Shown here piece by piece: positions 2,775-28,400 of a stretch of DNA of 64,000 bases. Source of the DNA: Faecalibacterium sp. Its GTDB lineage: Bacteria; Bacillota; Clostridia; Oscillospirales; Ruminococcaceae. The position numbers were made by a program, and so were the translations under genes. The stretch covers positions 1 through 64,000 of the forward strand of contig JARHYC010000021.1 of assembly GCA_029264955.1 (NCBI GenBank). Reading direction: 5' to 3'. The notes beneath the pieces were generated by a model. That model saw only the letters and a list, made by a program, of their open reading frames with translations. It ran no database searches and had not been told where the DNA came from. How positions within the stretch are numbered: the stretch's first letter is position 1; each line of letters starts with the position of its first letter.

Positions 2775-4172
2775 ATGGGAAAGGAGCTCTCTATGGAGCG
2801 CATCCGATATCTTCTGGTACCAGTCATCATCCCGCTGATACCGCTTTTGGGATTATTCTTTATCCCACAAACACAGCGCCGCCGCCGTTTTATCACCGGC
2901 GGGCTGTTATTTACGATTGTTTTCGCTTTTTTAGGGATGGGGCTGCAAGGCTCTGTAAATGCGGCTTCGCTTGGCTGGCTGGAATTTAGTTTACAGGGCA
3001 CACCGCTGGGGGGAGTATTTTCCCTCTCCATGGCTGTTCTGCTTTGTCTGACCGGAATCTTCGGTTTTGAAGTACTGGACAGCAAAGAGCGTAACTACTA
3101 CATTGCTTTTCTGACAGTATATATTGCTGTGCAGGCAGCTGCCTGCATGGGAAGTCTGCCTCTGTTTTTGGCGGCATGGCTGGTCGGCGCAATCGCTTGC
3201 GATGCATTGGTAAAGCGCAATCCCAAAGGACTGCGCTTTTACCGCATTGGAACAGCAATCAGCGTTGTATTATTGGCAGCCGGTACCGTACTGGCTGCCA
3301 GCCAACGTGCCGCTCTCACATTCCTGCCGCACACAGTAAAAACAGACGCAGCCTTACCGGCCGCTTTACTCATTGCGGGCTTTGCACTGCACACATTGAT
3401 TTGTCAGCTGACCCCTGCGGCTGCTCCCACTTCTGTTGTACTATATGTGGGTATGGGCAGTGTAGGACTGTTTGGCGTGATTCAGACCACCTACTATCTG
3501 TTTGGTGTTTCAGCGTTGGAAAATACCTTCCTACAACGCTGGTTTCCTCCTGTATTTTTGCTGATTGCCTTTGCTGCGGGGTTGCTGGCGCTCCGCTGCC
3601 AGAATTTGACCCAGCGGCTTGGGTGCCTTGCTGCAAGCCAAAGCGGTATCATTCTGTTCGGCTTGTGTGCCTTGCAAAAGGATTTATTTACCGGTGCTGC
3701 ACTGCTGTTTGTACTGGGGGATATTTGTCTGACGGCTTTGCTTTTGTGCAGCAGTGCATTCCGCTACACCCAGGGTAAAACGCTGGTTTCGCAGTTGGAG
3801 GGCATTGGCCGACAAATGCCGCTTGCTTTGTTCTGCTTCGGCTGTGCCGCATTTGGTTTGGTCGGTCTGCCGCCTTTTGCCGGCAGCGTTTCCCGCTGGC
3901 ATCTGGCACGCGGTGCATTGTCCAGTCTGAATTGGGGTATCCTTGCCGTATTGATACTGTTGCTTCTGGCTGCACTGACTGCCTTGGCTCTGCTGAAGCC
4001 TTTGAATCAGGGATTCTTCCCAGGCCGAGAATACGAAACCGACACGAAACTACACTACGGTGCCTGTGTTGGTGTTCCGGTTGCCATTCTTGCTGTTGTT
4101 CTGCTGTTTATGGGGCTTTTCCCCATTCACCTGCTGCAAATGGTGCAAACGGCAGCCTGCCTATTCAACTAA
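2775..4172 (+). CDS. Divergent NuoL/M/N (Mrp antiporter)-like membrane protein
   Basis: Polytopic; motif-like LTQRLGCLAASQSGIILFGL and GIGRQMPLALFCFGCAAFGLVGLPPFAGSVSRW resemble Proton_antipo_M signatures. The start could be the internal MERIRYLL. Confidence 0.7.
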   Translation: MGKELSMERIRYLLVPVIIPLIPLLGLFFIPQTQRRRRFITGGLLFTIVFAFLGMGLQGSVNAASLGWLEFSLQGTPLGGVFSLSMAVLLCLTGIFGFEVLDSKERNYYIAFLTVYIAVQAAACMGSLPLFLAAWLVGAIACDALVKRNPKGLRFYRIGTAISVVLLAAGTVLAASQRAALTFLPHTVKTDAALPAALLIAGFALHTLICQLTPAAAPTSVVLYVGMGSVGLFGVIQTTYYLFGVSALENTFLQRWFPPVFLLIAFAAGLLALRCQNLTQRLGCLAASQSGIILFGLCALQKDLFTGAALLFVLGDICLTALLLCSSAFRYTQGKTLVSQLEGIGRQMPLALFCFGCAAFGLVGLPPFAGSVSRWHLARGALSSLNWGILAVLILLLLAALTALALLKPLNQGFFPGREYETDTKLHYGACVGVPVAILAVVLLFMGLFPIHLLQMVQTAACLFN

Positions 4173-4184
4173 GGAGGTGCCACT

Positions 4185-5906
4185 TTGGATTTTATCAAAA
4201 CACTGAGCGGCACCCCCGGCGCCGCAAAACTGCTTCTGCTGCTTTTACTGGTCCCCCTGATCGGCAGCCTGTGTGTCTGGGGCATTAGTCTGTACGGCCA
4301 GACCATTCCCGGAAATGGCTGGCGTGACCGCCGGGATGCTATCATTTGGACCTGCTGCAGCCTGACCCTTTTGGGGGTACTGGCTTTGCGCCCATACTGG
4401 GGCACGGAATTCATCTTACTTGCTTCCGGCGGCGTGGGCTACAGTTTTGGCATCGACGGACTGCGCTATGTGCTGGCTGCGCTGGTTTCTACGCTATGGC
4501 TGCTTTCCAGTCTGTTCAGTCGCTGGTATCTTGCGCAGTCCAGCCACAAGATGCGTTATTATTTCTTCTTTTTGCTGGGCGAAAACGGCATCCTGTGTGT
4601 GCTGTTCTCTGCCGATTTGTACACATTGCTGACCGGCTTTGTTGTACTGAATCTGGCGTGCTGGGTCCTTACCGGCCATCGGGAAAGCGAAGCCGCTCGT
4701 ATGGCTGGTACACGCGCCTTGACTGGCGCCGTCTTTGGCGGCTTATGCGCGCTGTTGGGCATCCTGCTTCTGACCAATCTTCTGGGCACGGTACGATTTT
4801 CCGCTCTGCGGGTATTGGGCTACACCTGCCAAAACCGTGAGCTGCTGTATTTGGGCGGTGGCTTGGTGCTGATTGGTATTTCTATCAGCTGCGCTGTTTG
4901 GCCGCTGCCAAAACGAATGCCCAGCGCCAGCTTTGCCCCCGGCCCCGCCGCTGCACTGATTGCCGGTGCAGTTACCGTAGCTTGGATGTTCTCCGCCATG
5001 GTCCTCAGCGGACTTTTGTTCTGGTGGAATTACCCCTGGGGCATTTTCCTATCGGTACTGGGTATTGCTATGGCGGTGATTGGTGCAGTTGCCGCTTCGT
5101 TCCGCCCACATCTCAAACAGGCATTAACGATGCTTTCGGTCAGTCAAACCGGGCTGATTTTGCTCACACTGGGTCTGAACTGTCTTTTGGCAGATAAAAA
5201 CCATCTTGCTGCGGAGGCCGTTGTGTTGCAATGCCTGCACCACGGCTTATGCCAGATGGTGCTGTTCCTGTGTGCCGGTACGATTTGCCTCCATCAGTCC
5301 GACCTTTCTCTTTCCGCCTTGTGCGGCTTTGGTCGTGGCAAAAAGGCACTATTCGCCGGCTTTGCACTTGCAAGTGCATCGTTATGCGGAATGCCGTTTT
5401 TCTTCGGCTCCATCAATCTGACTCTACTACAAAAAGCGCTGCATAGCTTTATTTCCACCTTACCCGCAGGCGGCCGTGACATCCAACTGTTCCAGCTGAT
5501 TTCCTGGCTGGTGATTTTCAGTTGCGGTGCAAGTGTTGCCGCTGTGATCAAGCTTCTGGTTTTCCTGTTTGGCAAGCGGAATACAGACCCTGCTTTACAG
5601 GCACGATATGATGCACTGAACGAGCGTGATCTGTCCCCTCTGGTGCAAATTTTGTTGGTATGCTCCGGTGCGGTATTGCTGCTGGCCGGTCTGACTGCAC
5701 CTTATACGCTGCGGCATATTGCTTATAACTGTGTTGGCTTCTTCAGCACGTTACTGCGTGGACCTCTTACCGCATTCGAAAAACAACCCTTTGTACTGGC
5801 TGCTTTGTATCTGGGCATTGGCGGAATTTTGTACCTGCTGTTTTTATGCAAGCCACTGAAAAAGTTGGCAAATGGCAATTCCAAACCAGATGAATCCTCT
5901 TGCTGA
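4185..5906 (+). CDS. Divergent NuoL/M/N (Mrp antiporter)-like membrane protein, second copy
   Basis: Polytopic; HLKQALTMLSVSQTGLILLTLGL and GYSFGIDGLRYVLAALVSTLWLLSSLFS resemble NuoL/M motifs. Start at 4185 is TTG in the track, with RBS aaggaggtg upstream. Confidence 0.72.
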   Translation: MDFIKTLSGTPGAAKLLLLLLLVPLIGSLCVWGISLYGQTIPGNGWRDRRDAIIWTCCSLTLLGVLALRPYWGTEFILLASGGVGYSFGIDGLRYVLAALVSTLWLLSSLFSRWYLAQSSHKMRYYFFFLLGENGILCVLFSADLYTLLTGFVVLNLACWVLTGHRESEAARMAGTRALTGAVFGGLCALLGILLLTNLLGTVRFSALRVLGYTCQNRELLYLGGGLVLIGISISCAVWPLPKRMPSASFAPGPAAALIAGAVTVAWMFSAMVLSGLLFWWNYPWGIFLSVLGIAMAVIGAVAASFRPHLKQALTMLSVSQTGLILLTLGLNCLLADKNHLAAEAVVLQCLHHGLCQMVLFLCAGTICLHQSDLSLSALCGFGRGKKALFAGFALASASLCGMPFFFGSINLTLLQKALHSFISTLPAGGRDIQLFQLISWLVIFSCGASVAAVIKLLVFLFGKRNTDPALQARYDALNERDLSPLVQILLVCSGAVLLLAGLTAPYTLRHIAYNCVGFFSTLLRGPLTAFEKQPFVLAALYLGIGGILYLLFLCKPLKKLANGNSKPDESSC

Positions 5907-5923
5907 TCTAATCCTTCGTCCAT

Positions 5924-5956
5924 AAAAACGCACGGTGCCAGCCGTGCGTTTTTTAC
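5924..5956 (+). terminator. Intrinsic terminator after the NuoL/M-like pair
   Basis: aaaACGCACGGtgccagCCGTGCGTttttta stem-loop with T-run. Confidence 0.8.
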
Positions 5957-6066
5957 TTTTTAGGGAATCGCGCCTCTGCTGCTCTCTTAACGCACCAGTA
6001 AAACACTGAGCAGATGCCTGCCGCCCCGACAATCCTAACCATACCAGCGTTGCAGATTTGAAGGAG

Positions 6067-6095
6067 TTGTTCCGCAGACTGATGTAAAATATAAT
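6067..6095 (+). promoter_or_regulatory. Putative sigma-A promoter for the TetM-like gene leader
   Basis: TTGTTC (6067-6072), 17-nt spacer, TATAAT (6090-6095). Confidence 0.55.
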
Positions 6096-6383
6096 CTTAT
6101 GGTACACATGCCATAATGAATGAATCAAAAAATCTAATTTTGCACTGTTTTTCACACCCACTTTTTTGTGGAATGTTGAAAACTCTGTGGAAAGAGTGGA
6201 AACCTTCTACATTTAGTGGTTAGCCGTCGCTTACCCTCGCAAATATTGGTTTCGTTTTTCTGTGTCACTTGTGGAAAAGCGTGCATTCTGTCGGTTCCTC
6301 TTGTCTTTTTACACAGAACACGGTAGGATAAAAGCAAATCACGACTAAAATGGGTGAGGTTCTTCACCCGGTAAGGAATAAGA

Positions 6384-8954
6384 ATGAAACGACTTGTAAT
6401 CGGCATACTGGCTCATGTAGACGCCGGAAAAACCACCCTTTCGGAGGCTTTTCTCTACCAGTCGGGCGCGCTGCGCAGTCTGGGGCGTGTGGATAAAGGC
6501 AGCACCTTTTTGGACACTGATGCCCGCGAGCGTGCCCGCGGTATTACGATTTTTTCCCAGCCCGCTGTGTTGGAATGTCCCAATGTAAAACTGACTTTGT
6601 TGGATACCCCCGGTCATGTGGACTTTTCTGCTGAAATGGAACGAACACTGCAAGTACTGGACTATGCAGTATTGGTCATCAGCGGTGTCGATGGCGTTCA
6701 GCCCCACACCGAAACCCTGTGGACACTGCTGCAACGTTACAATGTACCTACTTTTATTTTTGTCAACAAGATGGACCTGCCCGGTCCCGGTCGAGAAGCT
6801 ATTTTGGAGGATTTGCACAAGCGACTCAGCCCCGCCTGCGTAGATGTTTCGGAGGATATTTCTGCGGATGCACACAGCGAAGCTTTTGCGCTGTGTGATG
6901 AAGCCTTAATGGATGGTTATCTGGAAACCGGTTCTGTATCAGACAATGCCATTGCGGATGCGGTACACCGCCGGGGTGTGTTTCCTTGCTGGTTTGGTTC
7001 TGCGCTGCGTTTACAGGGCGTAGATGCCATTCTGGATGGACTGAATCGCTATACGCAGGCTCCTGCTGTCTGCGAAGAATTTGCCGCATCAGTCTATAAA
7101 ATCAGTGCAGGCGAAAACGGCCAGCGACTAACCTGGATGAAAATTACCGGCGGCAGCCTGAAAAGCAAAACCACGCTGCGTTCCCGCCCGAAAGATGCAG
7201 CCCAGTGGGAAGAGAAAGCCGACCAGCTGCGGCTGTATTCCGGTGCAAAGTTCACGCCTATTCCAGAGGCTTTCCCCGGTCAGGTAGTGGCTGTAACTGG
7301 TCTGACGAAAACCTTTGCCGGCCAAGCGCTTGGTGCACAGGCAGACCTCATCAGTCCTAGTCTGGAACCCGTACTCACCTATCGGGTAGATTTACCCATT
7401 GGAACAGATGCGCATACTGCTCTGACCCAATTGCGCACTCTGGCAGAAGAAGACCCCCAGCTTCATGTTCTATGGGACGAAAATCTGGGCGAGATTCATA
7501 TTCAGCTTATGGGTGAAGTACAGCTGGAAATTCTGGAAAACCTGATTGCCGAGCGATTCGGTCTGGCGGTACAGTTCAGCCAAGGTGGTATCTTATACAA
7601 AGAAACCATCGCAGCTCCTATGGAAGGTGTGGGGCACTATGAACCACTGCGCCACTACGCAGAAGTGCATTTGCTTTTGGAGCCGGGTGAACGCGGCAGC
7701 GGTCTGGTATTTGGCACCAAATGCCGTGAGGATGCGTTGGACCGAAACTGGCAGCGATTGATTCTGACCCATCTGGCAGAAAAACAGCACCGCGGCGTTT
7801 TGATTGGTGCTCCGCTGACCGATGTAAAAATCACCCTTCTGGGCGGTCGTGCGCACGCAAAACACACTGACGGCGGCGACTTTCGCCAGGCTACCTATCG
7901 TGCAGTACGTCAAGGCTTACGCAGCACAGAAAGTGTCCTTCTGGAACCTTGGTATCATTTCCGTCTGGAAGTTCCTGCCGACAATGTAGGTCGTGCTATG
8001 ACCGACATTCAGCGCATGGGCGGTAATTTTGAACCGCCGATCCCTTTGCAAGATATGGTACTCCTGACCGGGTCTGCACCGGTCAGTGAGATGCGCCCCT
8101 ATCAAAAAGAGGTCACCAGCTACACCCGTGGTCGTGGGCGACTGTCCTGTGCGGTATCTGGTTATCAGCCCTGCCACGATGCAGATGCTGTGATTGCTGC
8201 GGTAGATTATGACCCCGACCGGGATTTGTCTGACCCTGCCGATTCTGTTTTTTGCGGTCACGGCGCAGGCTATACCGTCAAATGGAATCAAGTGCGGGAG
8301 CATATGCATGTGGATACCGGCTGGGGTAAACCCGAACCGGAGTTAGATCCCATGGATGTTCCTGCCCGCCGGGTACAGCGTTATGCTGGTACGTTAGCGG
8401 AAGATAAAGAGCTTTTGGCGCTGTTTGAGCAAACTTATGGTCCTATTAAGCGCGATCCCCGCAAAGCATTCCGCAAACCACCGGAACCCGCCGTCAGTGC
8501 GAAACCTGCTGAACCCATCCCGCAGGGACCGGAATACCTTTTAGTGGACGGTTACAACGTACTGCACGCATGGCCGGAATTTGCGGACATGCTGGAGGAG
8601 AATCTGGACGGCGCACGACATCGCCTGATGGATATTTTGTGCAATTATCAGGGCTACCGCAAATGTCAGGTCATTCTGGTCTTTGACGCCTACCGGGTAA
8701 AAAACAATCCCGGCAAGGTGGAGCAGTACCACAACATCAGTGTGGTATACACCAAGGAAGCCGAGACTGCGGATATGTATATCGAAAAGGTGACCCACCA
8801 AATCGGTCGCAAGTACCGGGTGCGTGTGGTCACCAGCGATGGGATGGAACAGCTCATCATTCTGGGTCAGGGCGGTCTGCGCGTATCCTGCCGTATGTTC
8901 AAAGAGGAAGTGGACGCTGTAGAAAAAGCCATTCGTGCTTATCTGGAACAGTGA
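6384..8954 (+). CDS. TetM/EF-G-like ribosomal-protection-type GTPase fused to a C-terminal YacP/Rae1-type NYN endoribonuclease domain
   Basis: N-terminal GTPase motifs AHVDAGKTT, DTPGH, NKMD; TetM-like domains IV/V (LLEPWYHFRLEVPADNVGRAMTDIQRMGG); Pro-rich linker; from about codon 716 YLLVDGYNVLHAWPEF...VILVFDAYRVKNNPGK...VVYTKEAETADMYIEK...VVTSDGMEQLIILGQGGLRVS, which closely resembles Bacillus YacP/Rae1. Confidence 0.92.
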   Translation: MKRLVIGILAHVDAGKTTLSEAFLYQSGALRSLGRVDKGSTFLDTDARERARGITIFSQPAVLECPNVKLTLLDTPGHVDFSAEMERTLQVLDYAVLVISGVDGVQPHTETLWTLLQRYNVPTFIFVNKMDLPGPGREAILEDLHKRLSPACVDVSEDISADAHSEAFALCDEALMDGYLETGSVSDNAIADAVHRRGVFPCWFGSALRLQGVDAILDGLNRYTQAPAVCEEFAASVYKISAGENGQRLTWMKITGGSLKSKTTLRSRPKDAAQWEEKADQLRLYSGAKFTPIPEAFPGQVVAVTGLTKTFAGQALGAQADLISPSLEPVLTYRVDLPIGTDAHTALTQLRTLAEEDPQLHVLWDENLGEIHIQLMGEVQLEILENLIAERFGLAVQFSQGGILYKETIAAPMEGVGHYEPLRHYAEVHLLLEPGERGSGLVFGTKCREDALDRNWQRLILTHLAEKQHRGVLIGAPLTDVKITLLGGRAHAKHTDGGDFRQATYRAVRQGLRSTESVLLEPWYHFRLEVPADNVGRAMTDIQRMGGNFEPPIPLQDMVLLTGSAPVSEMRPYQKEVTSYTRGRGRLSCAVSGYQPCHDADAVIAAVDYDPDRDLSDPADSVFCGHGAGYTVKWNQVREHMHVDTGWGKPEPELDPMDVPARRVQRYAGTLAEDKELLALFEQTYGPIKRDPRKAFRKPPEPAVSAKPAEPIPQGPEYLLVDGYNVLHAWPEFADMLEENLDGARHRLMDILCNYQGYRKCQVILVFDAYRVKNNPGKVEQYHNISVVYTKEAETADMYIEKVTHQIGRKYRVRVVTSDGMEQLIILGQGGLRVSCRMFKEEVDAVEKAIRAYLEQ

Positions 8955-28114: not shown

Positions 28115-28400
28115 AAAATAAAAGGCTCGTCTCAAATTTCTTTGAGACGAGCCTTGTCAAAAACAATACCCGCGGTACCACTCAAATTGTGCGACTTTCG
28201 CCGCACCACTTTCAGGCTCTAACAAGCCCTATGCACTAACGTAGCATTCACGAAAAACCCTACTGACAATTTTGTTTTAAGGTTTTCAGCTCGGAAGGGA
28301 TAGGATGTTTTAGCTGCTGTTTGCCTGGCTCGCACCAACGCCTGACTCTCTGGAAAACGCTTTGCTAAATCCGTCTTCGTCATCGCTTTTCATATGAAGT
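28115..28400 (-). promoter_or_regulatory. T-box leader upstream of brnQ
   Basis: On the minus strand: stem-I-like GCGATGACGAAGA...CCAGAGAGTCAGGCGTTGGTGCGAGCC, T-box sequence GAGTGGTACCGCGGGTA (about 28167-28184), then terminator GGCTCGTCTCAAAgaaaTTTGAGACGAGCC (28124-28153) + T-rich tail. Confidence 0.93.

Follow-up and report, generated by a model that had tools for sequence, protein, structure and literature searches.

A translational GTPase fused to a Rae1-type nuclease in Faecalibacterium and other Clostridia

Translational GTPases of the EF-G type occupy the factor site of the ribosome, with domain IV inserted in the A site. In TetM, Pro509 clashes with bound tetracycline (PMC7456112). 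The endoribonuclease Rae1 acts at the ribosomal A site, and its access may increase on stalled ribosomes (PMC6613710, PMC8266666). A GTPase and a nuclease of these kinds have been seen in one protein before: Atkinson 2015 (BMC Genomics 16:78, PMC4342817) describes NYN-bearing 'Tet' proteins in ten Clostridiales, with a suggested role in resistance. No experimental follow-up or biochemistry on any member of the fusion family was found in the literature searched.

The DNA analyzed here, referred to as the window, is a stretch of 64,000 nucleotides from Faecalibacterium sp. that encodes such a fusion. An earlier note on this DNA had allowed that the fusion might already be in the literature, and PMC4342817 indeed contains both the architecture and a speculative resistance role. 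As in the Tet-NYN proteins described there, an EF-G-type GTPase and a C-terminal NYN_YacP domain share one frame in a clostridial genome, and the window fusion and those proteins are almost certainly one family; one relative carries the NCBI name 'translation factor GTPase family protein'. The architecture itself is known, and the fusion is real, widespread and functionally suggestive. The new findings are that the fusion replaces free Rae1, that it probably arose once and was split once, that its GTPase forms a subfamily of its own and that most of the fusions compared have lost the Rae1 tail; these comparisons turn the idea of the earlier note into a specific, testable hypothesis.

The fusion gene and its domains

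The fusion is encoded by a single uninterrupted frame that starts with ATG. Its features are listed below, with residues numbered along the window protein.

5924..5953, + strand: terminator-like hairpin past the upstream gene (consensus match only)
6373..6378, + strand: Shine-Dalgarno-like AAGGAA, 5 nt ahead of the ATG (read from the sequence)
6384..8954, + strand: whole ORF, translational GTPase fused to an NYN_YacP/Rae1 nuclease, 856 aa
6393..7058, + strand: G domain, GTP_EFTU, residues 4-225 (Pfam E 5e-48)
7080..7328, + strand: domain II, EF-G_D2, residues 233-315 (Pfam)
7365..7580, + strand: domain III, EFG_III, residues 328-399 (Pfam)
7590..7925, + strand: domain IV, EFG_IV, residues 403-514 (Pfam E 2e-18), the most conserved domain of the family
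7629..7670, + strand: domain IV tip loop I, VGHYEPLRHYAEVH, residues 416-429, family-specific
7845..7889, + strand: domain IV tip loop III, GRAHAKHTDGGDFRQ, residues 488-502, with K493 at the place of TetM Pro509
7935..8180, + strand: domain V, EFG_C, residues 518-599 (Pfam E 5e-19)
8181..8333, + strand: GTPase C-terminal cap, residues 600-650, SVFCxHGAGxxVxW, where unfused relatives end
8334..8534, + strand: linker, residues 651-717, a conserved predicted helix (659-685) followed by a disordered Pro-rich part
8538..8939, + strand: NYN_YacP/Rae1 nuclease domain, residues 719-852 (Pfam E 1e-47)

The continuous GTPase and NYN frame described in the earlier note is borne out by the intact ORF, with complete domains G to V and a complete NYN_YacP domain, and the motifs it had named lie where it had read them. 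The profile architecture it had put forward (GTP_EFTU, EFG_C and NYN_YacP) is matched in full by Pfam, and its spread is charted below. A protein scan of genome contigs gave at least 588 relatives, of which the best 80 were kept, among them proteins of Faecalibacterium prausnitzii, Ruminococcus bromii, R. flavefaciens, Monoglobus and Lachnospiraceae. A frameshift or assembly artefact is excluded, as 79 of these best 80 relatives, from other species, are full-length single-frame fusions. The gene is probably its own transcription unit, with the hairpin at 5924-5953 preceding it; four such terminator-like hairpins were matched, by consensus only, over both strands compared to 0.4 expected.

In the GTPase module the motifs AHVDAGKTT, RGITIF, DTPGH and NKMD are all intact, so that G1, switch I, G3, G4 and the catalytic histidine of DTPGH have the form expected of a translational GTPase of the EF2 family. 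In VIA-align, whose rows span residues 1-622, EF-G structures match the fold of residues 1-613 at Z scores as high as 36. The nuclease module scores 162 bits against the NYN_YacP profile, whose curated cut-off is 24.6, and has acidic residues at D722, D768, E794, D797 and D819. A phmmer alignment to the crystal structure of B. subtilis YacP/Rae1 (5mq8) runs through VDGYN, VFDA, ETAD and TSD and upholds the Bacillus-like order of acidic motifs that had been read from the sequence.

AlphaFold2 with 80 homologues predicts both modules with high confidence (mean pLDDT 82.9) but leaves their relative placement undefined (pTM 0.58), with disorder at 650-663 and 693-711 and the helix 659-685 between. 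The linker had been described as Pro-rich; the Pro-rich stretch is present, but it is preceded by this helix, which contains a conserved E-L-x-x-I-F-x-x-T-Y-G motif (residues 673-686, window 8400-8441).

Fused and free Rae1 in Clostridia

In a class sample of 393 genomes, each at least 90% complete, the fusion was found in 136 and a free YacP, mostly of 160-230 aa, in 114; 27 of these 250 assignments rest on the GTPase result and not on NYN frame length, and a few of the fusions counted are truncated at the end of a contig. Only one genome (G284) has both forms compared to about 39.5 expected (p = 2e-24 by Fisher's exact test, n = 393, kinship ignored). Fused and free Rae1 are mutually exclusive, the counts being of non-independent events. 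The exchange can also be seen over short distances: one genome has only a free yacP while its seven congeners have only the fusion (G051 in genus g36), and similar swaps occur within another genus (G206 in g31) and within a family (G094 in f22). The window genome follows the same pattern, as its sole NYN_YacP domain, at an estimated completeness of 99.6%, is that of the fusion. Fused copies also occur beyond the class, inside the phylum. Four genomes of the window's own family have neither the fusion nor a free Rae1, and the function is therefore dispensable.

Phylogenies of the two modules give a consistent picture. In a quick-search tree of the GTPase part, all 45 sampled fused proteins form one clade (SH-aLRT 100) that contains none of the subfamily's unfused GTPases, and four more fused sequences stay inside the clade in a larger FastTree run. 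All 66 fused NYN domains likewise fall in one clade (100/99, with bootstrap values incompletely settled), and this clade includes one free member, from genome G209. This is a free NYN protein of 173 aa with a fused-type tail (L211:3287-3808), and the same genome encodes an unfused-type GTPase on another contig (G209:C2:817201-817926). G209 is a natural fission of the fusion and is useful for judging whether tethering matters. Both trees, together with G209, point to one origin of the fusion as the most likely history, followed by at least one reversal.

The unfused GTPases of the subfamily were found in 29 genomes. They are about 640-725 aa long and stop just past the MHC motif, where the linker of the fusion starts, and none of the 29 genomes contains a fused copy as well. 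Of these genomes, 22 have a free YacP, compared to 91 of the 228 other genomes that lack the fusion (odds ratio 4.7, p = 3e-4, kinship ignored). This is a Rosetta-stone pattern, in which two proteins of a single process became one chain. An unfused GTPase gene adjoining a free yacP, as in a pre-fusion operon, was not seen among the genomes examined (for example, G106 and G320).

It is possible that the joining was a matter of chance, with the GTPase acting in translation or in ribosome assembly, the NYN domain doing the work of Rae1, and the tether providing no mechanistic coupling. The 22 genomes with the modules as separate genes, the fission in G209 and the mostly disordered linker would agree with such independence. 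We nevertheless regard it as unlikely, as a single fusion has been retained over dozens of families, the linker harbors a conserved helix motif, fused-copy genomes never hold an unfused GTPase, and the nuclease lost its tail after the fusion.

This tail loss is a change in the nuclease module. All 30 free Rae1 proteins compared have a C-terminal tail of 65-72 residues from TSD on, nearly always with a LEKxRR-like helix end, which is an observed common feature of Rae1 and not an accepted defining criterion. This tail is absent (at most 50 residues from TSD on) in 72 of 104 fusions, a proportion that is no census, since the fused set was drawn largely from a scan favoring near relatives of the window protein. 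The window protein is one of the 72, with 41 residues from VTSD on. By alignment, the tail of B. subtilis Rae1 includes R166, and both the R166P mutant and a frameshift in the tail behave as loss of function (PMC6613710). It is a natural inference that the GTPase module may have taken over the job of the tail, most simply docking on the ribosome. The acidic residues remained: D722, D768 and D797 are present in 105 of 105 fused NYN domains and D819 in 104 of 105, and the E794 position is E or Q.

The GTPase module and its genomic context

The earlier note had called the GTPase TetM-like, a label that does not hold: identity to TetM and TetO is about 28%, Pro509 is absent, and the protein lies outside these families in the tree. 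In a tree whose Tet comparators were TetM, TetO, TetS, TetW and an OtrA-like protein, the fused and unfused subfamily members group together, apart from all of these (SH-aLRT 97 and 100), and the window GTPase belongs to this separate clade. The sequences place the GTPase as a sister group of TetM/TetO, not as a member.

The tip of domain IV differs as well. The TetM tip reads YYSPVSTPADFRM, with Pro509 numbered from the 3j9y sequence, and the family loop III is RAHxKHTEGGDFRQ. Lys or Arg takes the place of Pro509 in all 25 unfused proteins and in all but one of the 105 fused ones, and the residue beside it is His in all 130 family sequences. Among the fusions, 50% of the columns of domain IV have at least 95% identity, compared to 18-32% elsewhere. 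Since domain IV is conserved while Pro509 is replaced, the tip is under strong constraint, for a purpose other than the TetM solution. Every one of the 104 fused sequences spanning the DTPGH site keeps its histidine. Four divergent fused proteins (L199, L231, L232 and L233, of family f6, in genomes G001, G198 and G336) have ASADTGKTT or ANVDSGKTT as G1 and an altered loop III while keeping the NYN acidic residues, which suggests a weakened role of the GTPase in these proteins.

These comparisons bear on the proposal of Atkinson 2015 (PMC4342817) that the fusion is a ribosomal protection protein of the tetracycline type with the RNase as a second resistance mechanism. The domain order is that of TetM, and tet_protect is the best NCBIfam match of the window protein (408.9 bits, compared to 284 for EF-G), but the score falls well short of the curated threshold, 775, and the missing TetM-type tip would make drug displacement less likely. 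Moreover, roughly one in three genomes of the class sample has the gene, which is chromosomal and spread by descent rather than on mobile elements, consistent with the lack of mobile-element context remarked on in the earlier note. Tetracycline resistance is unlikely to be the main role as judged from these sequence data, and the proposal as a whole seems to us very improbable. The earlier note's preference for a role wider than tetracycline resistance, a general one in translation, is supported as the likelier. These findings warn that the tetracycline-resistance label suggested for the fusion genes is probably wrong. In another instance, PDB entries 7uvp and 8dmf have a chain named tetracycline resistance protein TetQ in a structure titled B. 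thetaiotaomicron EF-G2, that is, another EF-G paralogue under a Tet label.

A mobile or phage gene was considered and rejected: the only full-length matches lay in entries like a Monoglobus 'plasmid' of 518 kb and two faecal 'phage' records without annotation. The latter, human-faecal 'Bacteriophage sp.' records with a full-length fusion at MT835563.1 5421-8012 (63% identity) and MT835514.1 15276-17774 (50%), are probably bacterial contigs filed as phage. A conserved operon partner was rejected as well, the commonest neighbor family being shared by 12 of the 80 loci. Among the window genes with Pfam matches, those closest to the fusion code upstream for an antiporter-like membrane protein, adjoined by a 465-aa ORF with no Pfam match (2775-4172, +), and downstream for a PAP2 protein, PrmA and an RsmE-like RNA methyltransferase. 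No Rfam element was found near the gene that could be a regulated leader as in tet(M), and there is no match to a sigma-70-like promoter in 5880-6420. Elsewhere in the window, a T-box leader (28140-28392, -) scores barely above the Rfam gathering score.

Free yacP genes occur in the order mrnC-rlmB-yacP-sigma factor, which in B. subtilis is the mrnC/yacO/rae1/sigH neighborhood; in the window genome, mrnC adjoins an Obg-type GTPase gene, with neither rlmB nor yacP at that site. Maturation of rRNA or tRNA by the NYN domain on assembling or cycling ribosomes, which would agree with an early prediction for NYN domains (Anantharaman and Aravind 2006, cited by PMC4342817) and with the rRNA processing and modification genes mrnC and rlmB beside free yacP, can be largely discounted, because B. 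subtilis Rae1 targets translated mRNAs and the fusion has moved out of that neighborhood to sites with no conserved neighbor.

Proposed role and comparison with known systems

We propose, with a probability of roughly 0.6, that the fusion is the Rae1 of these organisms and that the translational GTPase joined to it takes it to ribosomes, where it would cut mRNA in or close to the A site. Because Rae1 acts in the A site and EF-G-type GTPases place domain IV there, the most probable effect of the fusion is to tether Rae1 to ribosomes whose A site is free, and the mutual exclusivity, single origin and loss of the tail after fusion all fit the delivery of a nuclease to the ribosome. Ribosome binding and RNase activity of the fusion are expected by analogy with its relatives. 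Tethering is not essential, since G209 and families such as f38 run both functions as separate proteins.

In the scheme that we envisage, paused or stalled ribosomes would take up the GTPase module at their factor site, and the tip of domain IV would probe the decoding center. The NYN domain, on its linker of about 70 residues, could then reach the mRNA in or beside the A site and cut it there, leaving tmRNA, which the window genome encodes, and exonucleases to complete the clearance of the truncated message. Domain IV and the Rae1 domain cannot occupy the decoding center simultaneously, which requires either that the steps follow one another or that the cut be made elsewhere. In the first case, docking of the GTPase and inspection by the tip would be followed by movement upon GTP hydrolysis and then by entry of the NYN domain and the cut; alternatively, the NYN domain might cut the mRNA just outside the A site. 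We infer that GTP hydrolysis may gate cleavage and that stalled ribosomes may be the substrate. It is a more tentative notion, and one we would rather doubt than assert, that the separate GTPase subfamily is a dedicated ribosome-quality-control factor whose domain IV tip senses paused ribosomes and whose GTP hydrolysis times the cut by the tethered nuclease in the A site.

If delivery of Rae1 by its own GTPase is correct, about a third of the sampled Clostridia species, including gut Faecalibacterium and Ruminococcus, possess an EF-G-like message cutter that enters the ribosome. It would represent a route for clearing stuck ribosomes that differs from the known ones of E. coli, and would offer a handle on the path of Rae1 to the A site. 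We know of no bacterial factor that joins GTPase-driven ribosome entry and mRNA cutting in one chain.

Among known systems, TetM and TetO (PDB 3j9y, 4v6v) share with the fusion domains G and II-V in the same order, at about 28% identity over 595 residues. They differ from it in loop I, in the C-terminus and in loop III, where TetM SPVSTPADFRM corresponds to KHTEGGDFRQ, and the fusion has the extra NYN domain. EF-G shares the fold of residues 1-613, and loop III of the fusion retains the EF-G histidine position (GxxH), but loop I is four residues shorter, the NYN domain is added and, unlike EF-G, the fusion is not present in every genome. B. subtilis Rae1/YacP (PDB 5mq8, 5mq9) has the full NYN domain with all acidic motifs and can be aligned to about its residue 136, whereas the window protein is fused to a GTPase, lies outside the mrnC-rlmB-yacP-sigH order and lacks the C-terminal LEKxRR tail. 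The closest likeness is to the Tet-NYN proteins, which in Atkinson 2015 are EF-G-like GTPases with a C-terminal YacP-like NYN domain in Clostridia. That account has ten species and a resistance role; here the fusion extends to roughly a third of the genomes sampled from the class, belongs to a clade other than that of TetM, TetO, TetS, TetW and OtrA, and replaces free Rae1.
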